Positions 2,301 through 17,448 of a stretch of 64,000 nt of DNA are shown here, piece after piece. Each line of letters opens with the position of its first letter. Positions within the stretch are counted from its first letter, which is position 1. The stretch covers positions 496,001 through 560,000 of the forward strand of contig NZ_JACCFV010000001.1 of assembly GCF_013410545.1 (NCBI RefSeq), read 5' to 3'. A model generated the notes under the pieces. It was not told where the DNA came from. It ran no database searches and saw nothing but the letters and a program-made list of their open reading frames with translations. This DNA comes from Pseudoclavibacter chungangensis (lineage in GTDB: Bacteria > Actinomycetota > Actinomycetes > Actinomycetales > Microbacteriaceae). The position numbers and the translations under genes were made by a program.

Positions 2301-3877
2301 GCCGCATCGATCCGGCCGACCTGCCGCCGAGCCTCGCCGACACCCCGCTGTTGGGGCAGCGCGAGGCCGAGCGGGCCGCGCGGGCGAACGGTCCGCCGGA
2401 TCCGGCAGGCTCGTTCCGACAGTTCGTGCACGAGGGGCGGGGAACGGGGCGCGACGAGGCGCGATCGTCGGCACACCGTCCCGAACACCGTGGCGACGCG
2501 CGCGGGCGGGTACCGCAGTCGACGGCCGGCGCGCTCGTGGGCGAGCTTGACTGGGAGGTCGTGGCGCGTCTGCGGCACGCGGTGTCCGACCTGTTGACGC
2601 GACAGATCGAGGCGAAACCGAGTATGTCGGAGCAGGATCGGCGAGCCATGGCGCAGAGCCACATCGCCGAGGTCGTGCGCGAGGAGGCGGCCTCGCAATT
2701 GCGTGGTGGGGGACGGGACGCCACCTGGTCGCAGGAGATGCAGCACCGGGTGTCGAGGGCCGTGTTCGACGCGCTGTTCAAGCTCGGACGCCTGCAGCCG
2801 CTCGTGGACGAGCCCGGCGTCGAGAACATCGACATCTTCGGCCACGACAACGTGTACGTGAGCTACGCCGACGGCAGCAAACGGAAGGCGCCAGCCGTCG
2901 CCGACAGCGACGAGCAGCTCGTCGCCGACATCGCCTTCCTCGCGCAGCGCGGGGGCGAGGAGGGGCGCAGCTTCACGGCCGCGAGCCCCGACCTCGACAT
3001 GGATCTGCCGGGCGGCGCGCGGCTCGCGGCCGTGCATCCGCCGATCTCGCCACGGCCGAAGGTCGTCATCCGCATCCACCGTTTCGTCGACATCTCGCTC
3101 GCCGATCTCATCGGGTACGGCACGCTCACCCCACCTGCCGCGGCGTTCCTGAGCGCAGCGGTGAAGGCGGGGGTCAGCGTCGTCGTGGCGGGCGCGCCGA
3201 GTGCGGGGAAGACCACGTTTGTGCGCGCACTCGCGAACGAGATCGATCCGTTCGAAGAGATCGTGACGATCGAGAAGGAGCGCGAGCTGCACCTCGATCG
3301 CATGGGGGAGCGGCACCGCATCGTCACGGCACTGCAGTATCGGCCGGGGCAGGGGGAGGCGGGCGCGGCGGGGGCCGGTGAGGTCGGGCTCGTGCAGTTG
3401 CTCGAGAAGGCACTGCGGCTCAATGCCGAGCGCATCATCGTGGGCGAGGTGCGTGGCGGCGAGGTGGATGCGATGTTCCAGGCGATGCAGGCCGGCGTCG
3501 GCTCGCTCTCGACCATTCACGCATCGAGCCCGACCGACACGATCGAGCGACTCGCGAGCCTCACCCTCAAGAACCTCGGCACGAGCGACGCGTATGCGTA
3601 TCGGCAGATCACACAACACATCGGTCTCATCGTGCAGATCCGGCGCGTCCGTCGCGGGGGACAGGTGCGGCGTGTGGTCACGCACATCTCGCAGGTGCAG
3701 CCGGGCGAGTCGGCGCCGGACGGCACGACGCGCCCCGTCGCGATGGACGTGTTCGCGATCGACGGCGAGGAGCGACTCGGCGCGCGTCATCTGCCGACGG
3801 GCGCGCTGCTCGGGCGGCTGCGTGAGGTGGGTTTCGACGATCGCGACCTGCGGGGCGATCGAGGAGGATTCGCATGA
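2297..3877 (+). CDS. tadA: Tad pilus secretion ATPase TadA/CpaF
   Basis: A 526-residue secretion ATPase that powers Flp pilus assembly at the cytoplasmic face. Walker A is GAPSAGKTT at residues 299-307. A Walker B-like region ERIIVGEVRGGEVDAM lies near residues 376-391, with the family's STIHASSP shortly after. About 95 N-terminal residues are charged and probably disordered, ahead of an N-terminal helical domain. It overlaps both neighbours by four bases (ATGA), so the five machine genes are translated as a block. Confidence 0.95.
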   Translation: MSRIDPADLPPSLADTPLLGQREAERAARANGPPDPAGSFRQFVHEGRGTGRDEARSSAHRPEHRGDARGRVPQSTAGALVGELDWEVVARLRHAVSDLLTRQIEAKPSMSEQDRRAMAQSHIAEVVREEAASQLRGGGRDATWSQEMQHRVSRAVFDALFKLGRLQPLVDEPGVENIDIFGHDNVYVSYADGSKRKAPAVADSDEQLVADIAFLAQRGGEEGRSFTAASPDLDMDLPGGARLAAVHPPISPRPKVVIRIHRFVDISLADLIGYGTLTPPAAAFLSAAVKAGVSVVVAGAPSAGKTTFVRALANEIDPFEEIVTIEKERELHLDRMGERHRIVTALQYRPGQGEAGAAGAGEVGLVQLLEKALRLNAERIIVGEVRGGEVDAMFQAMQAGVGSLSTIHASSPTDTIERLASLTLKNLGTSDAYAYRQITQHIGLIVQIRRVRRGGQVRRVVTHISQVQPGESAPDGTTRPVAMDVFAIDGEERLGARHLPTGALLGRLREVGFDDRDLRGDRGGFA

Positions 3878-4755
3878 GTGCCCTGATCGGCATGCTCGTG
3901 ACCGTTGCGGTGCTGGGCGTCGTCGTCGCCGTCGTCGGATTCCTGCCCGTGTCCGAGGGACGCGCGGCTCGTCCACCGAGCGGTTTCGCACGGTGGGTGA
4001 ACCATCGGCGCGCGATCCTTACGCGACGCCAGTGGCGATGGGCTGCCGTGGGGCTCGTCCTCGGCGTCGTCGGGTGGATGCTGACCGGTTGGGTCGTGCT
4101 CGTCTTCGCCGCTCCGATCGTCGCGCTCGGCCTGCCCTACGTGCTCTCGAGCGGCGAGAACCGTGTGCAGCTCGACCGACTCGACGCCCTCGAGTCGTGG
4201 ACGCGAAACCTGTCGGGGCTCACGCAGACCGGCGCGAGCCTCGAGCACGTGCTCATCGCGAGTCTCTCGAGCGCTCCGGAGCCGATCCGGCCGGAGGTCA
4301 ACACCCTCGTCGCCCGGCTGAACGCTCGCTGGCGCACGCGGGACGCACTGGAGCAGTTCGCGGCGGATCTTTCCGATCCAACGGCCGATCTCGTCGTCGT
4401 TCATCTGCTGCTCAACGAGTCGCAGCGGGGCCCCGGGCTGACCGCGGCACTCGACGATCTCGCACAGATCATTTTCGAGGAGGTGCGCGTGCGGCGGCAG
4501 GTGGAGACGGATCGTGCGAAGCCGAGACAGAACATGCGGATCATCACGGTCGCGACGTTGGGGCTGCTCGCGTGTCTGCCGCTCCTCTCGACGTTCATGG
4601 CTCCGTACCGGACACCGTTCGGGCAGGTGTTGCTGGCCGCGTGGCTCGTGCTCTATGCACTCATCCTGTTGTGGCTCAAGCGCATGACCGTCACGAAGCC
4701 GAGCCCGAGGCTCCTCGACGGGGCGTGGACGCAGGCGGACGGGAGCACCACATGA
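3874..4755 (+). CDS. tadB: Tad inner-membrane platform protein TadB
   Basis: A 293-residue type II secretion F-like membrane protein. Hydrophobic segments lie at about residues 4-24, 50-90 and 225-270. The cytoplasmic T2SSF-like domain between them contains LESWTRNLSGLTQTGASLE and a conserved DLVVVHLLLNESQRGPGL stretch. It should pair with TadC to form the pilus platform driven by TadA. It starts in an ATGA overlap with tadA and ends in an ATGA overlap with a short reading frame that leads to tadC. Confidence 0.85.
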   Translation: MSALIGMLVTVAVLGVVVAVVGFLPVSEGRAARPPSGFARWVNHRRAILTRRQWRWAAVGLVLGVVGWMLTGWVVLVFAAPIVALGLPYVLSSGENRVQLDRLDALESWTRNLSGLTQTGASLEHVLIASLSSAPEPIRPEVNTLVARLNARWRTRDALEQFAADLSDPTADLVVVHLLLNESQRGPGLTAALDDLAQIIFEEVRVRRQVETDRAKPRQNMRIITVATLGLLACLPLLSTFMAPYRTPFGQVLLAAWLVLYALILLWLKRMTVTKPSPRLLDGAWTQADGSTT

Positions 4756-4862
4756 GGGCGATGCGGCGGGCGAGGGCGATGTGGCGGGTGGCAGGGTGCC
4801 CCGGCGCAGCGGGTCGAGCTCGCGCCGCCGCCGCGCCGGTGCGGACGGGGCGGGGGCGCTGA
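4752..4862 (+). CDS. 36-codon coupling ORF between tadB and tadC
   Basis: An ATG overlaps the tadB stop (ATGA) and opens a 36-codon frame that is very rich in Arg, Ala and Gly and ends in TGATG at the likely tadC start. The peptide resembles no known protein. The double overlap suggests it carries ribosomes from tadB to tadC rather than encoding a functional product. A GTG at 4781 in the tadC frame could instead give tadC a 27-residue N-terminal extension. Confidence 0.35.
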   Translation: MRAMRRARAMWRVAGCPGAAGRARAAAAPVRTGRGR

Positions 4863-5737
4863 TGCTCGCGTTCGTTCCGGGTGCATTCGTCGGCATCGGC
4901 GTGACGCTCATCCTGGTCGGGCTGATTCCCGTCCGGCCGGACCTCCGTGTCGCGCTCGCGAACATCGGCACGTCGACCGTGCCCGAGGCGAGTGCTCCGA
5001 CGTCTCGCCCGCAGCGTGCCGGTGCGTGGCTGCGCACGCACATGCCCGAATGGGCGATCAGGGGCGATCTCGATCGGGACCTGTCGCTCGTCGGTATGAA
5101 CGCCTCGCGCTTCTACTGGGACAAGTTGCTGCTCGCGCTCGTCGGCTTCGTCGGGTGTTCGACGCTCGGGTTCGTCATGCAGACGCTCGGGTACGTGCCC
5201 GCGTACCTCTTCTCGCTCGTGGGCGTCGGCTTCGCGCTGTTGCTCTGGTTCGTGCCCGACCAGGAACTCCGGCGGAAGGCGCGCGAGAGCAGACTGGAGT
5301 TCGCTCGCGCGGTGGCGGTGTATCTGGAGCTCGTCGCCGCCGAACGGCGCCGGGGGTCCTCCGCGACGCATGCGCTCGAGTCCGCGTCGCGGGTCGGCAA
5401 CACGTGGGTGTTCATGCGCATCCGCGAGGAGCTGACGCGGGCACGGCTCGCGGGCACGAGACCGTGGGATGCGCTCAACATGCTCTCTGATCAGATCCGC
5501 GTGCCCGAGCTGAGCGAGATCGCGAAGATCACGCGGCTGAGCGGTGAGGAGGGGGCGTCGGTGTACGAGACCCTTCGCGGTCGCGGGCGAGCGTTGCGTG
5601 TGCAGTTGCTCAACGACGAGCACGCGAAGGCGAATCAGGCGTCGGAGCGGATGTCGGTGCCGCTGACGTTCCTCGCCTTCGTGTTCGTCGGGATCATCCT
5701 CACGCCGCTCGTCCTGAACCTGACGGGGGGATCGTGA
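4862..5737 (+). CDS. tadC: Tad inner-membrane platform protein TadC
   Basis: A 291-residue T2SSF-family membrane protein, the usual partner of TadB. Hydrophobic segments lie at about residues 2-22, 85-105, 110-130 and 265-288. The central cytoplasmic part includes the family-like EFARAVAVYLELVAAERRRG and LSDQIRVPELSEIAKITRLS stretches. I chose ATG 4862 because a membrane segment begins at once and the codon overlaps the preceding TGA. GTG 4781 is the alternative. Confidence 0.82.
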   Translation: MLAFVPGAFVGIGVTLILVGLIPVRPDLRVALANIGTSTVPEASAPTSRPQRAGAWLRTHMPEWAIRGDLDRDLSLVGMNASRFYWDKLLLALVGFVGCSTLGFVMQTLGYVPAYLFSLVGVGFALLLWFVPDQELRRKARESRLEFARAVAVYLELVAAERRRGSSATHALESASRVGNTWVFMRIREELTRARLAGTRPWDALNMLSDQIRVPELSEIAKITRLSGEEGASVYETLRGRGRALRVQLLNDEHAKANQASERMSVPLTFLAFVFVGIILTPLVLNLTGGS

Positions 5738-5866
5738 TGCGCCGCGCCGCTGCCGTCCGATCTCGCGATTCGTTCGGGCCGTTTCTCTGTAGGGGTCGAC
5801 TCCGGCCTGCCGCTCGTCGTCCGTGTCCGTCCCCATCCGTCCCGTTCACATCACCTGGAGGTACTC

Positions 5867-6061
5867 ATGAACCGGATCCTGAATGCAACCGCCGCTCGCG
5901 TCGGAGTGCGCCTGGCTCGTCTGCGCGACGAGGGAGAGGCGGGTGCCGAGACGACGGAGTGGATCTTCATCGTCGTCGGGGCGCTCGTCATCGGTGGCGT
6001 CGTCATCGCCGCGATCACGGCGTTCGTCGACGGGCAGATCGCGCTGCTGCCCGGCGGGTGA
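5867..6061 (+). CDS. Flp-type pilin subunit
   Basis: A 64-residue major pilin candidate. A short basic leader precedes GAETTEWIFIVVGALVIGG; the acidic residue just before the hydrophobic helix (about residues 30-54) is the class III pilin pattern, with processing expected near the Gly/Ala-Glu junction. CTGGAGG lies seven bases upstream of the ATG, a strong ribosome site, and a 129-base gap separates it from tadC. Both fit higher expression than the machine genes. No prepilin peptidase gene is visible in the window. Confidence 0.75.
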   Translation: MNRILNATAARVGVRLARLRDEGEAGAETTEWIFIVVGALVIGGVVIAAITAFVDGQIALLPGG

Positions 6062-6073
6062 ACGGAGACTGCG

Positions 6074-6478
6074 GTGGTGTCCGTTCGGAATCGTGGCGTC
6101 GGGTGCCGGGCACTCGGCGGGGAACGTGGTGCGTCGAGCGTCGAGGCGGCGATCATCCTTCCGGCGTTGCTGTTGGTGTTCTTCGCCATCGTGCACGGGG
6201 CCGCGTTCCTGCACGCCGGGAACATCGCCCAGGCGAGCGCGCAGGCGGCCTATGAGGAGGCGCGTCTGTTCGACGGGACGGCCGCTCAGGGTGTCGCTGC
6301 CGGGCAGGCGGCCGGTGCTGCGTCCGGTGGTGGGCTCGAGAACGTCGCGGTCACCGTCGATCGGGGCACGGAGTCGGTGACGGTGACCGTGACGGGGCAG
6401 GCACCGATGCTCATTCCGGGCCTGCCGCTGGATGTCACGCGGACGATCACGGGGCCCGTGGAGCGGTGGTCGCAGTGA
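6074..6478 (+). CDS. TadE-like minor pilin
   Basis: A 134-residue pseudopilin. After a basic leader comes GASSVEAAIILPALLLVFFA, the TadE signature with Glu at position +5 of the mature helix, followed by a small beta-rich domain. The start is GTG (6074 or 6077) behind CGGAGAC. It would be a minor pilin assembled with Flp. It overlaps the next gene by GTGA. Confidence 0.75.
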   Translation: MVSVRNRGVGCRALGGERGASSVEAAIILPALLLVFFAIVHGAAFLHAGNIAQASAQAAYEEARLFDGTAAQGVAAGQAAGAASGGGLENVAVTVDRGTESVTVTVTGQAPMLIPGLPLDVTRTITGPVERWSQ

Positions 6479-6924
6479 CCGGCAGGTGGCCGTGGCGACA
6501 CGGTGTTTCGGATGATCGGGGTGCGTTGTCGGTCGAGCTCGTCATCGTCGCGCCGGTCCTGATCGCGGTCGTGTTGTTGCTCGTCGCGGCAGGCCGGATC
6601 CAGGTCGCGACGACGGCCATGCAGTCGGCCGCGGGTGCGGCGTCTCGAGCGGCGTCGATCGCGTTGACGAGTGCAGAGGCGGAGATCGAGGCGACCGAGG
6701 TCGCGCGGACGACGCTGAGCGAGTCGGGCTACCTGTGCGCGACGTTGACGGTCGAGGTCGACGACTCGGGGCTCGCGTCGCCCCTCGGCGTCTCCGGCAC
6801 GGTCGCGGTGACCGTCACGTGCGATCTCGCGTTGGCGGACATCGCCCTGCCCGGCCTCGGCGGGACGCGAACGTTCACGGCGACGGCATTGAGCCCGGTC
6901 GACTCGTTCAGGGAGCGGAACTGA
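6475..6924 (+). CDS. TadE/TadF-like minor pilin
   Basis: A 149-residue protein with the pseudopilin N-terminus GALSVELVIVAPVLIAVVLL at about residues 17-36. An alanine/serine-rich helix and a small beta domain with two cysteines follow. I chose GTG 6475, which overlaps the preceding TGA (GTGA) and has GGAG 11 bases upstream; GTG 6466 would add three residues. It is the second of three consecutive minor pilin-like genes and ends in TGATG with the next start. Confidence 0.7.
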   Translation: MTGRWPWRHGVSDDRGALSVELVIVAPVLIAVVLLLVAAGRIQVATTAMQSAAGAASRAASIALTSAEAEIEATEVARTTLSESGYLCATLTVEVDDSGLASPLGVSGTVAVTVTCDLALADIALPGLGGTRTFTATALSPVDSFRERN

Positions 6925-7358
6925 TGCGCGGTTTGATGATGAGAGTCTCGCAGCTCCGGCGACAGCCGGAGCGCGGCAGCGTGCAGTTGTTCCTGATCCT
7001 GACCGTCGTGACGTTGGTCGTGGTCGTGGGGCTCGTGGTCGACGGTGGTGGGAAGGTGCAGCTCGCCACGGATGCGCAGCACGTCGCCTCGTCGGCGGCG
7101 CGAGCGGCGACGAACGCGATCTCGGCCGAGACGGTTGCCGGGCACGCGTTGAGCATCGATGCGCTCCTCGCGACCCAGGTCGCCGAGGACTACATCGAGA
7201 ACGCCGACATGACCGGCACGGTCTCGGTGGACGGTGCCACCATCACCGTCACGACCGAGGCGGTCTACGCGACGAGATTCGTCAGCCTGATCGGCATCAG
7301 CACACTCACCGTCAGCGGAACGGCAACGGCAAGTCTCATCGACGGGCCAACGGGCTAA
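6924..7358 (+). CDS. TadG/Tad-domain-like minor pilin
   Basis: A 144-residue membrane-anchored protein. GSVQLFLILTVVTLVVVVGL lies at about residues 18-37, followed by VVDGGGKVQLATDAQHVASSAARAA, the usual start of a Tad-domain helix. The von Willebrand part of full TadG is absent. ATG 6924 overlaps the previous stop (TGATG) with GGAGCGG upstream. It closes the pilin block; the next gene starts 32 bases later. Confidence 0.68.
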   Translation: MRGLMMRVSQLRRQPERGSVQLFLILTVVTLVVVVGLVVDGGGKVQLATDAQHVASSAARAATNAISAETVAGHALSIDALLATQVAEDYIENADMTGTVSVDGATITVTTEAVYATRFVSLIGISTLTVSGTATASLIDGPTG

Positions 7359-7390: not shown

Positions 7391-8038
7391 ATGCGAACAC
7401 AAAAACTCCGAATTGTCGTCTTGGGTTCGGCTGCGGTGCTTGCGCTAGTGCTTTCGGCATGCGCGTCCGGAGAACCGGACCTGACGCCGCTGCCTTCAAC
7501 CGACGCGTCGACGGTTGCCGAGGAGACCGCGTCGGTTCCGGAGAAACCCGGCGTCGAGGACCTCCCCCTCGTTGCGGAGCCTCCCGCTACGGAGAGCGCG
7601 GCCATCGACTGGGCAGTGCGTGCGACATACGGATACATTGCGGTCGAAGGCGACGTCATGAACAACCACCCCGACGATACGTCCGAGCTCGCCCTCATCG
7701 CTAAGGGGAACGCTTCGGACTTGATTTCCTACTACGCTGGAAGACTCGCTGAGACCGGCAATATCAGGTCGGGGAATGCGTACTATGAGGCGCTTGCGGA
7801 GAGAAGCAGTGTCGCGACCTCCGGTGATGCGAGTGCGACACGGTTCGGGCGAGTCGAAGTGTGGGGATGCTATGGGTCGGGAGACGTTACGCTCACCGAC
7901 GCGGACGGAAAACCCCTGGAACATGCGAATATTCCGCCGGCTCCAATGTGGTTACTTGCCGAGTATGATGCAACCAGCTCGATTTGGTACATTGTCGATA
8001 TCGATCCGCTTCCTCAAGATGCGGCCTTCTCGTGCTGA
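7391..8038 (+). CDS. lipoprotein A of unknown family, Tad-linked
   Basis: A 215-residue lipoprotein with a clear signal: basic start, hydrophobic core and lipobox LSAC with Cys24, then CASGEPD and an acidic/Pro/Thr linker. The folded part carries MNNHPDDTS, YYAGRLAE, FGRVEVW and LTDADG blocks and ends in SC. I do not recognise the family. The same blocks recur in the broken gene at 9004-9720. ATG 7391 gives the best signal peptide; ATG 7373 is possible. Base composition is less GC-rich than the pilus genes. It probably sits on the outer face of the cytoplasmic membrane and may serve the pilus. Confidence 0.75.
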   Translation: MRTQKLRIVVLGSAAVLALVLSACASGEPDLTPLPSTDASTVAEETASVPEKPGVEDLPLVAEPPATESAAIDWAVRATYGYIAVEGDVMNNHPDDTSELALIAKGNASDLISYYAGRLAETGNIRSGNAYYEALAERSSVATSGDASATRFGRVEVWGCYGSGDVTLTDADGKPLEHANIPPAPMWLLAEYDATSSIWYIVDIDPLPQDAAFSC

Positions 8039-8898
8039 TTTCTCCCACTTTATGTTCAAGAATCCTTCTTCTCTCAATTGTTGGACTGCTTTGCGTGGGT
8101 ATTGTTTTGCCTGTGGGTGACGTCGCGTTTGCGGAGGAACAATCATCGTATGAGTCTCGCGGTAGGGGGCCACTGCCTGATGGGTCCTATCCGGGCGGCA
8201 ACTGCGAAGTACTCAGTTGTGGGACTTGTGATTCCTCGGTCAGTTCGGACAACCGTTGTGACGGTCAACCACCCGGTTCCACGGAGCGTCCGCCCACTGA
8301 TCCTGACGATGGCCTAGATGATGGGCCCGACGGTGGTTCGGGCGGCGGAGCCGATGGTAGCGATGGTGGTGCGCCGGCGCCCGCACCTCCGCCTCCGATC
8401 CCGGCCGGTGAGGCGGCGTTGGCGCTTTCCGCGGCTTTTGCTCCGTCGCCGATCGAGATCGGGATGGCGCCGAAGGTGAATCCGGATTGGGGGCATCGGC
8501 GGTCGTATGTTGGTTTGCCGATTTGGATGTGGGTTGCGAATCCGTCGGCGTCGTCGTGGGGGCCGACGTCGTGGTCCGGGTCGACTGGTGGACAGACGAT
8601 CGATTTCGTGGCGCAGGTGAGCACGGTGCACTGGGATATGGGCGATGGGGCGATGGTGACGTGTGCGCAGGGCACGCCGTATTCGACGGCGTACGGGAAT
8701 CGGATGTCGCCGTCGTGTGGGCACAAGTACACGCACGTGAGTGCGGGGCAGCCGGGCGGCATGTATGCGGTGACGGCGACGACGAACTGGACGATTGCGT
8801 GGACGAGTCGGACGACTGGGGAGACCGGGACGCTCACAGCCTCGGCGGTGTCCTCGACCGAAGTCGAGATCCTGCAACTGCAATCCGTCAACACCTGA
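8032..8898 (+). CDS. secreted PKD-like domain protein
   Basis: A 288-residue exported protein. The signal peptide covers about residues 1-34 (LLLSIVGLLCVGIVLPVG, cleavage near AFA). A cysteine-containing segment, a Gly/Asp-rich then Ala/Pro-rich linker (residues about 75-125), and a C-terminal PKD-like domain with VHWDMGDGAMVTC and CGHKYTH follow. GTG 8032 overlaps the stop of lipoprotein A; a TTG upstream would only lengthen the overlap. It lies between two paralogous lipoproteins at the end of the pilus operon, so a role in adhesion or envelope anchoring is an inference. Confidence 0.72.
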   Translation: MLISPTLCSRILLLSIVGLLCVGIVLPVGDVAFAEEQSSYESRGRGPLPDGSYPGGNCEVLSCGTCDSSVSSDNRCDGQPPGSTERPPTDPDDGLDDGPDGGSGGGADGSDGGAPAPAPPPPIPAGEAALALSAAFAPSPIEIGMAPKVNPDWGHRRSYVGLPIWMWVANPSASSWGPTSWSGSTGGQTIDFVAQVSTVHWDMGDGAMVTCAQGTPYSTAYGNRMSPSCGHKYTHVSAGQPGGMYAVTATTNWTIAWTSRTTGETGTLTASAVSSTEVEILQLQSVNT

Positions 8899-9003
8899 TC
8901 GCGACGTTGCGCCAGGGGCGGCGCTGCGACGCGGCCGAAATCTGGGACGTCGCGTGGTCGCGTCGTGATCACGTTGATGAGTACTCCGAATTTGAGGGGC
9001 AAA

Positions 9004-9720
9004 ATGCCTGCTGGACTTCGCAGATCGGTCGCTGTCTTGGTGACGCTGACGTCACCGACGCTGCTGGGAGGGTGAGCCGCCGGCGAGTCGGATGGCGCGC
9101 AATCGGCCGCCGAAACGACGACCCAACCCAGTGATCCGTTGCCGACGATGGGGGAGACGCCCGCCGTCACCGACGTGCTACTCGTCGCCGAGGCCGCGAC
9201 GTTCGAGGAGGAGGCGATCTGGTGGGCCGTCCACGCCGCCAATGCGTTCAACGTCGTCCAGTCCGAAGTGATGAACAACCACCCGGACGACACGAGCATG
9301 CTCAACTCGATCGCGAAGGGAGACCCAATCGTCATCGTCGAGTACTACGCCGGGAGGCTCGCGACGAGCGGCCTCGTCATGCCCGGGCTGGCCGAGCAGT
9401 GGGTCATCCCGCAAGAAAGCGTCGTATCGCCCGACCGCGAGAACCGGGAGTCGAGCTTCGGTCGCGTCGAGGTCTGGCTGTGTTCGGGAACCGGTGGTAT
9501 TTCGCTGACGGACGCCGACGGAAACGACGTCCCTCACCAGTACATCCCGCCGGGCCCGCAGTGGATGCTCGCGGAGTACGAGGTCGAGGAATCAGCGTGG
9601 TTCATCACCGCGATTACGGTCTGGCCGGAGGCCGACTACAGTGCTGAAGGCGGGGTGCGCGCACCGAAGCCGAATACCGGGCGCAGATGCGACGAGGCGT
9701 CGCCGTGCGCCGGCCTCTGA
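9004..9720 (+). pseudogene. lipoprotein B, paralogue of lipoprotein A, interrupted
   Basis: A strong ribosome site (GAGGGG, 8993-8998) and ATG 9004 open a signal peptide that reads MPAGLRRSV...TLLGG and then hits TGA at 9073-9075. The same frame continues AAGESD and then the whole domain shared with lipoprotein A (MNNHPDDTS, YYAGRLA, FGRVEVW, LTDADG). The stop is codon 24, exactly where lipoprotein A has its lipobox Cys24. A second lesion, loss of one base near 9638-9641, skips the ancestral TGC-TGA end and adds about 24 foreign residues. Internal ATG 9139 could start a cytoplasmic fragment of 193 residues. Confidence 0.8.
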
Positions 9721-9725
9721 CCTCA

Positions 9726-10604
9726 TCAGGCGAGCAGGTCGAGCGCCTCTCGCGCGATGAGCTCAGGCTCGGTCACGGGGATCAGGTGCGCGGAGCGTTC
9801 GGCAGGCACGAACCGGGCGCCCGGGTGTGCGGCGACCGTCTCGTGGTGTGCCCGCACGAGGCCCGCCCGCAGCGCGCGGTCGAATCGGCCTGGCCGCTGC
9901 CCCGACAACACGCGCATCGGCATGTCGGCGAGCGCGAGCGGGTGCTCGGCCAGCGTCGTGATCTCGGGCGGGACCACACGGTGCTCCGCCGCGATCGCGT
10001 GTGCGGCATCGACCGTCGTCGACGCGGCGACCGTCGCATCGAGGATCGGCTCGGGCAGCCCCCGCAGGGGCACGCGCGAGAGCCTGCCCAGAAGTCCCGT
10101 TTGGGCGAGGGGCACCATGATCGCGCCCTGCGCCTCGCCCGACCAGCGCGCGAGCCGGGAGGTGTAGAGCTCTGCCGCGTGCTCGTCGCTCTGGTCGACG
10201 AGCACGAGCCCCGCAGGTGCACTGCCCTCGGCGAGCAGACGCGCGGCGAGTGTCCGCACGATCGGGCCGCCCCAACTGTGCCCGACGAGCACGAGTCGCC
10301 GGTGCGGGAACGCGTCGACGACGGTCCGGAGGTCGCGCGCGAGGTGGCGAAGGTCGCGCGGCGCATCGCGCACCGGCGAACTGCCGCCGTAGCCGGCGCG
10401 CTCGTAGGCGACGACGCGCGCGTGCCGGGCGAGCCGCGCGTGCACCGGCCCCCAGTACAGGCCGCTCGTGCCGAGCCCCGCCTCGAGGACGACGAGATCG
10501 TCACCCTCGCCCGCCGACATGGTGCGTAGACGCCGACCGTCCCACGCGTCGACGAACCCGTCCTCGCCGAGTAACCCCGCCCCTGGAACCGTGTCCGTGC
10601 GCAT
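9726..10604 (-). CDS. alpha/beta hydrolase
   Basis: A 292-residue cytoplasmic alpha/beta hydrolase. The nucleophile elbow is GHSWGG (Ser at about residue 109), the oxyanion region is VLEAGLGTSG, and a likely catalytic His lies in ERSAHLIPVTEP near the C-terminus. The substrate cannot be read from the sequence; family members are esterases, lipases or peptidases. It is convergent with the pilus cluster and transcribed alone. Confidence 0.85.
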   Translation of the reverse strand: MRTDTVPGAGLLGEDGFVDAWDGRRLRTMSAGEGDDLVVLEAGLGTSGLYWGPVHARLARHARVVAYERAGYGGSSPVRDAPRDLRHLARDLRTVVDAFPHRRLVLVGHSWGGPIVRTLAARLLAEGSAPAGLVLVDQSDEHAAELYTSRLARWSGEAQGAIMVPLAQTGLLGRLSRVPLRGLPEPILDATVAASTTVDAAHAIAAEHRVVPPEITTLAEHPLALADMPMRVLSGQRPGRFDRALRAGLVRAHHETVAAHPGARFVPAERSAHLIPVTEPELIAREALDLLA

Positions 10605-14625: not shown

Positions 14626-15165
14626 TCACGTGCGACGCAGGATCAGCAGCCCGTCCCAGCCCTTGACGCCGACCGTCTGCACCGCGGTCGCCTCGAGCGA
14701 CGGATCGGCGGCGATGTCCGCCACGAGTTGCCGGACGCCACGGACGCGTACGTCGTCGCTGTGCTCGTCGACGACGGCACCGTCGTGCACGACGTCGTCG
14801 ACGATGATCACGGCGCCGGGGCGGGTCAGTCGGAGGGCGACCGCGAGGTAGGCGGGATTGCTGGGTTTGTCGGCGTCGATGAACACGAGGTCGAACGGTT
14901 CGGTGTGGGTGTCCGCGAGGCACTGTGCAGACTGGGCCGCAGGCCCGCCGACGACGTCGACGCGGTCGGCGACGCCCGCCCGCTCGAGGTTCTCACGGGC
15001 GATCGCGGCAATCGTCTCCTCGAGCTCGAGCGTCAGCACCCGGCCCTCGTCACCCACCGCGCGAGCGAGCCAGATCGTCGAGTAGCCCGCGAGCGTGCCG
15101 AACTCGCCGGAGTCGACCCCGGCCAGATGGTTCCAGTCCGGTACCGGCCGGAGATCTTCGACCAC
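14626..15165 (-). CDS. O-methyltransferase (family 3), short N-terminus
   Basis: A 179-residue SAM-dependent methyltransferase of the catechol/caffeoyl-CoA OMT family. Motif I is EFGTLAGYSTIWLARAV, then VLTLELEE, DLVFIDADKP and GAVIIVDDVVHDG, the usual order of metal and SAM sites. Family members are about 215-225 residues; the roughly 40 residues normally before motif I are missing. The frame upstream of GTG 15165 stays open but does not resemble the family. It may be an N-terminally truncated gene or use a different start. Confidence 0.7.
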   Translation of the reverse strand: MVEDLRPVPDWNHLAGVDSGEFGTLAGYSTIWLARAVGDEGRVLTLELEETIAAIARENLERAGVADRVDVVGGPAAQSAQCLADTHTEPFDLVFIDADKPSNPAYLAVALRLTRPGAVIIVDDVVHDGAVVDEHSDDVRVRGVRQLVADIAADPSLEATAVQTVGVKGWDGLLILRRT

Positions 15166-15331: not shown

Positions 15332-17117
15332 TCACAGCAGCCCGGACTCCTTCAGCAGTTCCTCGGTCCATGTGCCGTGGAGTTTCTTGACGAGCTGCTT
15401 CTCGACGAGCCCGGCGAACGGGAACTTCGCGGGCAACGGCTCCTCCTCGATGCTCTTCCGGTCGCGCAGGTAGTAGGCCGCCTTGAGGAGCTGCCGGATG
15501 TCGTACACCGACCCGAACACCTCGGGGATGCCGCGCTCGACGCCGAGGAGGGTGTAGACCGCCTCCATCGCCGTGCGCACCGAGTACTCGGTCGTGAACA
15601 CCGTGTCGCGCGTCGGCGATTCGGCGAAGTTGCCGATGAACGCGAGGTTCTTCGAGCCGTTCGGCACGACGGCGGGCCGGTCGCCCGGTCGCCGGGGCAT
15701 GAAGTACGACGTGATGAACGGCATGTAGACCGGGTTCGTGTTGATCGAGCCCTGGGCGGCGAGCTCGGCGATGCGGTCGGTCGGGACGCCGAGGTGGTAC
15801 AGCCACTCCTGCGTGATCTCCTCGCCGCTGCACTCGGTGATCCGCTTGTGGACGTAGTCGCCCTCCGTGTCGGAGTAGAGGCCGTAGATCCACACCGTCG
15901 TCTCGTTGGGCTTCTGCTCCTTGAAGTGGGGTTGGCGGTGGACCGCGAAGCTCATGAGCCAGCTCGAGTCGGTGATCGTGATGATGCCGCCCGTATTGAC
16001 CTTGTGATCGTGCAGATCGCGCTTCGTGAGTCGTTCGATGTACGGATCGACCTCGGTGTTCTCGATCGTGGCGGTCGCCGACACGAACCAGCTCCGCTCC
16101 GGGAGTCCCGTCGAGAACACGTCCGGGCGTCCGAAGTCGGGGGAGCGCTCGGCGAGGCGCTGCCACAGCGTCCACGATCCGCCGGGCTCGTCGGTGACGG
16201 GCGCGGGCGTGGTGGTCGCCGTAGGTGGTCGACTCGGTGATCGACCCGTTCGTGACGAACACGAGGTCGTCCTCGCCGAGCGCGATCGACTCGTCCTCGC
16301 CGTCGACGGTGACGAGCAGGTGGGTCGCGGTCTTCGTGTCGCCCGTGACGTCGACCTCGACGTCACGCACCGTGGTCCCGTACCGGAAGTCGACGCCGTG
16401 GTCGTTCAGGTAGGCGAGCAGTGGCTTCACCATCGACTCGTACTGGTTGTAGCGGTTGAACTTGAGTGCCGAGAAGTCGGGCAGCCCGTTGATGTGATGG
16501 ATGAAGCGCATGAGGTAGCGGCGCATCTCGACGAGGGAATGCCACTCCTCGAACGCGAACATCGTCGACCAGTAGACCCAGAAGTTGCTCTTGAAGAAGT
16601 CGGCCGAGAAGTGGTCGGCGATCGTCTTGTCGCCGAGGCTCTGTTCCGAGGCGAGGATGAGCTTCACGATCTCCTGCTGTGCCTCGTTCGAGAGGGTGAA
16701 GTCGCCGTCGGTGGGAACGCGCTCGCCCTGCTCGTGGATCAGGCGGCAGTTCGAGGAGTTCGGGTCGTCCTTGTCGAGCCAGTAGTACTCGTCGAGGTAC
16801 GAGGCGCCCTCGATCTCGAGCGAGGGGATCGACCGGTACATGTCCCAGAGGCACTCGAAGTGGTCCTCCATCTCGCGTCCGCCGCGCGTGATGAAGCCGA
16901 TGTCGGGCCGGTCGATTCCGTCGAGCGAGCCGCCCGCGAGGGGGAGCTCCTCGAAGATGTGGATGCGTTCGCCGGGTACGTGGCCGTCCCGGATGAGGAA
17001 CACCGCGGCGGAGAGGCCGGCGAGACCGGCCCCGACGATCCACGCCGACGCCGTCTCGGCGCGCTCCGGCGTGCGGGGCCGCGCGAATGCTTCGTAGTTT
17101 CCGTTCGAGTGGTACAC
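15332..17117 (-). pseudogene. oleate hydratase, frameshifted
   Basis: FAD-dependent fatty acid double-bond hydratase of the MCRA/OhyA family, which makes 10-hydroxy acids. The N-terminal half has the FAD site [17 protein letters not shown] and [14 protein letters not shown]; the C-terminal half has [25 protein letters not shown] and [20 protein letters not shown]. The halves lie in different frames and join near 16210-16216, where the expected GDHHTPAPVT needs two more bases in a CAC repeat. Restoring them gives about 595 residues, the normal family length. GTG 17117 follows AAAGAGG. It is either a real -2 frameshift or a sequencing error. Confidence 0.85.
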
Positions 17118-17448
17118 GATCTCCTCTTTCGTTCGACGGAGACTCCGGGTGCTGCGCACACGGCTCCGGAGCGTCGATCGAAAGGGCCGGTGGTCCTCGC
17201 GGCGTGCGATCGACCGATCGGCGGGCCACTGCGTGGGCGGCGGGTCCGGTGTGGTCGTCATCCTGCCGGTGCTCACGGTCGGGCACCGCACCTCGGGCTC
17301 CGGGGCCGCGGTGTGACCATTGTCATCCTCCCGTCTGGGCGGCAGCCGTGGACGCCACCAGGGGCGGCGTGCGCGTCGCCCGACGCAGTGAGCCCGTGAC
17401 CTCGGAACGGAACGATCGGGTCACGGGCTCGCTGCAGCGATCGATCGA
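17118..17448. other. intergenic region between NCS1 permease and oleate hydratase
   Basis: No gene is recognised in these 331 bases. The left end holds a strong terminator hairpin of the permease gene (17390-17430); the right end carries the ribosome site of the hydratase gene. Confidence 0.6.
17390..17430 (-). terminator. hairpin downstream of NCS1 permease gene
   Basis: Perfect 12-bp inverted repeat GAGCCCGTGACC / GGTCACGGGCTC with a 17-base loop, starting 19 bases before the permease stop codon on the coordinate scale and so just 3' of the gene on the minus strand. It lacks a long U-run, as is common in GC-rich actinobacteria. Confidence 0.6.

Follow-up and report, generated by a model that had tools for sequence, protein, structure and literature searches.

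The window, meaning the whole stretch of 64,000 nucleotides that was analyzed, contains an intact lipoprotein gene and a second, damaged copy of it, referred to here as copy A and copy B. Copy B lies behind both a Tad-type pilus gene cluster and copy A, and the genes and features concerned are as follows.

3874 to 7358, plus strand: Tad-type pilus genes upstream of copy A, with two T2SSF, two TadE and one Tad match to Pfam
7391 to 8038, plus strand: copy A, the intact paralogue, a 215-residue lipoprotein with a lipobox Cys24 and a C-terminal Cys
8032 to 8898, plus strand: gene for a secreted-looking protein, with a GTG start that overlaps the end of copy A
9004 to 9720, plus strand: copy B of the lipoprotein gene, very probably a pseudogene, assigned from its frame, its homology and two lesions
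9004 to 9072, plus strand: remaining signal-peptide part of copy B, 23 codons, with 15 of 23 residues the same as in the relative P0002 (counted by eye)
9073 to 9075, plus strand: first lesion, a TGA at the position of the lipobox Cys (codon 24), where P0002 and the other intact relatives have Cys
9076 to 9639, plus strand: mature domain of copy B, open over 188 codons, with a GC3 of 0.87
9640 to 9720, plus strand: second lesion, a run-on of 26 codons and a stop, the frame being off by one base from about 9640

Read from the ATG at 9004, copy B gives 23 codons ending in TLLGG, followed by TGA and then AAGESD, and the frame closes at 9718–9720. The sequence-only reading had described the TGA as codon 24 of this frame and had pointed to a paralogue at 7391 with Cys24; both are correct, the TGA being at 9073–9075 and copy A reading LSAC and then ASGEPD. 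The same reading took the mature domain to be open. This is true in that no stop occurs before 9718–9720, but the ending that is typical of the family is not followed beyond 9639.

The part of copy B that follows the stop is clearly homologous to the mature domain of copy A (E 5.8e-42, 43% identity), which is its only other match in the genome. In the reverse search, with copy A as query, copy B is matched over residues 19–209 of copy A with one TGA inside the match. A search of approximately 5.8 billion proteins with the post-stop part of copy B found two proteins. One of these, P0001, is the 190-residue product of the window itself, with a predicted start at 9148. The other, P0002, is 214 residues long, comes from a contig of 2314 bases, and matches with an E value of 7.1e-83 and 73% identity. 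The first 23 residues of P0002 align with copy B without gaps, and its residue 24 is Cys (LLGGC).

A Cys at the lipobox is what defines a bacterial lipoprotein, and it is here that copy B has TGA while its relatives carry Cys. The expectation that homologues would have a Cys in the aligned column was borne out in 8 of 8 intact relatives seen as full proteins, including P0002; these are copy A, P0003, P0002, the L005 protein, P0004 (the same as the L007 protein), P0005 (the same as the L006 protein), P0006 and P0007. P0003 is copy A with one residue changed, as judged by eye. P0003 and P0004 to P0007 have both the lipobox Cys and a Cys as the last residue, and the members at L005, L006 and L007, which belong to three further genomes of this genus, also end in Cys. 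Copy A as query additionally finds L008 (40% identity over 45 residues, E 7.6e-4). Since copy B itself gave just one match in 59 other genomes, and that a weak one (G003, E 2.7e-9), it is not a widely kept gene. A profile search of genome contigs with copy B returned 20 stretches by pattern and no relative among them, and a plasmid search gave only one short match of 70.6%, in Streptomyces, which is of no use. Neither Pfam nor NCBIfam gave a named family over the cut-off for the lipoproteins searched; a named DUF for lipoproteins linked to Tad clusters would have been expected, and the searches of the two collections did not find one.

The 3′ end of copy B holds a second lesion. Near 9640 the frame is one base out of step with the ending of the family, which is a Cys followed directly by the stop, so that the terminal Cys and the native stop are lost. 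In the family arrangement the Cys codon and the stop sit at 9642–9647, in a neighboring frame. Copy B reads ADYS and then AEGG, where P0002 ends in ADYEC and copy A in AFSC. Of the three cysteines present in all five intact members aligned (lipobox, middle and terminal), copy B thus lacks the first and the last. A coding model (a Viterbi model of codon usage, trained with 460 kb of sequence from the same genome) places the segment of copy B at approximately 9144–9640 (1-based), ending at the frame slip. The codon-usage score per codon is −0.22 for the 26-codon run-on versus +0.23 for 9076–9639. It is, however, also negative for the signal part of copy B (−0.44), for copy A (−0.16) and for the gene after copy A (−0.26), and the score alone is therefore no proof that the run-on is non-coding.

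The surroundings of the two copies are partly conserved. The end of copy A and the start of the next gene overlap by 7 bases, GTGCTGA (8032–8038), and the same pair of genes, in the same order and with the same 7-base overlap, is found at L005, L006 and L007, which suggests that the two genes may be translationally coupled. Inspection by eye shows Tad-like genes immediately upstream in L006 and a single one, on the opposite strand, in L007; none was seen in the stretch of L005 that was examined. The protein encoded at 8032–8898 has no match in Pfam at 0.001 (read from 7984) and none in NCBIfam. A contig profile search with its alignment found it at 11 named actinobacterial loci, and among 299 genomes of the family 7 were matched, 3 of them weakly (E 1.5e-4 to 3.5e-4).

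We examined 14 loci that carry the gene for the secreted-looking protein, three of which are the same places as L005, L006 and L007. An open frame that ends at the start of this gene and has a lipobox-like Cys is present at 10 of the 14; the exceptions are L045, L061, L062 and L064, which have no such frame, have it cut by the end of the locus, or give no pattern match. The last residue of that frame is Cys at 10 of 14 loci (L061 included), and at L046 and L062 a Cys stands one or two residues from the end. At L056, in the frame ending at 2889, the intact gene, with the ending IDINTPADGKTEC, is immediately preceded by a short stretch IDLNTPADGRTEC and a stop. This short stretch resembles the end of a further copy that has been lost, suggesting that copies of the lipoprotein gene arise and decay. 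Around copy B itself (8850–9760), scanning found no promoter-like site, and one terminator-like site, on the minus strand, versus 0.4 expected.

In this assembly, then, copy B carries two inactivating lesions relative to P0002, copy A and the other intact relatives. We conclude with considerable confidence that it is a pseudogene: a duplicated copy of the Tad-linked lipoprotein gene that has lost its function through both lesions. The sequence-only reading had a surface lipoprotein switched off by a single stop. That it is switched off remains the best reading, given the TGA at codon 24 and the frame slip at the end; what had been missed is the slip. The events would have been a duplication of the lipoprotein gene, leaving copy B beside the intact copy A behind the Tad-type pilus cluster; a mutation of the lipobox cysteine codon of copy B to a stop; and a one-base frame slip just before its conserved terminal Cys and stop. 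The lipid-attachment residue would thereby have disappeared. Translation from 9004 would be expected to release a 23-residue hydrophobic peptide, and a restart past the TGA would give a domain with neither export signal nor anchor. On these two predicted outcomes copy B would be dead, and copy A presumably carries the function.

The coincidence of the stop with the anchor residue calls for no special mechanism. Up to 9642, copy B comprises 213 codons, in which 58 codons at risk still offer 72 single-base routes to a stop; copy A has 76 such routes in 61 codons, including one at its lipobox Cys. At equal rates a single nonsense change thus falls on the Cys codon of copy B in about 1 of 73 cases, a coincidence that is picked out after the event, and no directed mechanism is needed.

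The loss is probably recent. The codon bias and most of the conserved residues remain. The 188 codons that stay open past the TGA, with their GC3 of 0.87, count against the pseudogene reading. Over 188 compared sites, copy B has 12 changes that are unique relative to copy A and P0002 has 8 (p 0.50), and no long decay is therefore visible. Where copy A, L005 and the other copy agree, 6 of 36 sites are different in copy B and 1 of 31 in P0002 (Fisher p 0.11); this leans toward relaxed constraint on copy B but is not significant.

We considered whether the gene is in reality intact and one or both lesions are artifacts of sequencing or assembly. This was approached with a scan for broken genes over the window and 20 further stretches (460,000 bases, 401 coding segments). 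The scan detects a break only where more than 150 bases of typical coding signal flank it on each side, and it is blind to atypical genes such as copy A; its count is a coarse lower bound, and lesions like either of those in copy B would escape it. It gave no stop-split gene, 8 same-frame junctions, which by eye look like ordinary neighboring genes, and one frameshift-like break, near 16216 in the window. Two genes are relevant here.

14626 to 15165, minus strand: O-methyltransferase gene, seemingly without its N-terminal part (Pfam match from position 50 of 204)
15332 to 17162, minus strand: oleate hydratase-like (MCRA) gene whose two parts lie in different frames, with the break near 16216

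Positions 3–282 of the Pfam MCRA model are matched on one side of the break and 284–495 in another frame. The truncated-looking O-methyltransferase gene adjoins this broken MCRA gene. Because the only frameshift-like break in the sample lies about 6.5 kb from copy B, a locally weak assembly is conceivable. Against this, the coarse scan covered 396 kb outside the window without finding a frameshift-like break, though it would miss lesions of the type seen in copy B; the N-terminal loss from the O-methyltransferase gene looks like real decay; and errors would have to supply both a substitution and a frame slip within 717 bases. In addition, the 190-residue product, which lacks the signal region, stands for 4 sequences on 3 contigs, although these may be copies of one assembly. 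We consider the error explanation unlikely.

A further possibility is that copy B still yields something useful, either the 23-residue membrane peptide or a cytosolic domain restarted near 9139 or 9148. The frame is open with a strong coding signal up to the slip, and the protein database holds the 190-residue prediction from 9148. However, the prediction of a gene caller is no proof of translation, the export signal, the anchor and the conserved terminal Cys have all gone together, and none of the 8 intact relatives has such a form. A short peptide with a function found no support. Residual function is therefore highly improbable, and it is at least as doubtful that the stop is tolerated because an unanchored or truncated copy still acts, for example as an unexported restart domain near 9148 kept by selection. 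Production of the domain, if it took place, would make copy B an odd instance of a lipoprotein that has become cytosolic.

Reading of the UGA as selenocysteine or another residue, with the lipoprotein made, has next to no chance of being correct. There is a single in-frame UGA exactly at the Cys site, and replacement between Cys and Sec is the usual pattern for an in-frame UGA at such a site, but selA has no match in the genome, and selB (5 matches) and tRNA-Sec (11 matches) have none over the cut-off. The best selB match covers positions 1–260, scores 192.4 bits where 242.25 are required, and appears to be the type of signal given by an elongation-factor-like GTPase; the 8 best tRNA-Sec matches are, according to ARAGORN, tRNAs for Ser, Gly, Trp, Arg, Ser, Gly, Arg and Thr. 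In fold statistics, the RNA that follows the TGA has a GC-rich stem but folds no better than shuffled sequence (z −0.11, with 81 of 200 shuffles folding at least as well), and the second lesion would persist in any case. With selA, SelB and tRNA-Sec absent or below the cut-off, selenocysteine at this TGA is very unlikely; the sequence-only reading, too, had judged recoding unlikely.

Copy B is thus most likely an ordinary pseudogene with two lesions, and the stop at the Cys is real. It illustrates neatly how a duplicated gene for a surface lipoprotein can die, in part through a stop in the codon for its anchor residue, and it shows that a predicted gene (here 190 residues from 9148) may conceal such a pseudogene. 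Among the papers listed by literature searches, nothing was seen on this lipoprotein family.

Among known systems, the Rcas_1661 family thioredoxin-like (seleno)lipoprotein (NCBIfam NF041057) has a name that allows selenocysteine. Only P0005 and the protein of L063 match it, weakly and far below the cut-off (14.2 and 16 of 190 bits); no match is listed for copy B, copy A or P0002, and the genome has no selenocysteine machinery over the cut-off. Another comparison is with the lipoprotein genes of Pseudoclavibacter sp. AY1H1 (L055), a Pseudoclavibacter MAG (L056), Cryobacterium (L057–L059) and Microbacterium (L060 and L063), which lie directly before the conserved gene for the secreted protein. 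Unlike copy B, these genes are intact, with a lipobox-like Cys, a Cys as the last residue, and a reading frame that stops where the next gene starts. The L055 and L056 proteins, the two of these that were aligned (as L006 and L007), also have the middle Cys and are 20% and 21% identical to copy A. The closest counterparts are copy A (215 residues) and P0002 (214 residues), which share with copy B a signal peptide and a homologous mature domain (43% and 73% identity, respectively); both retain what copy B has lost, the Cys24 of the lipobox and the final Cys with its stop.
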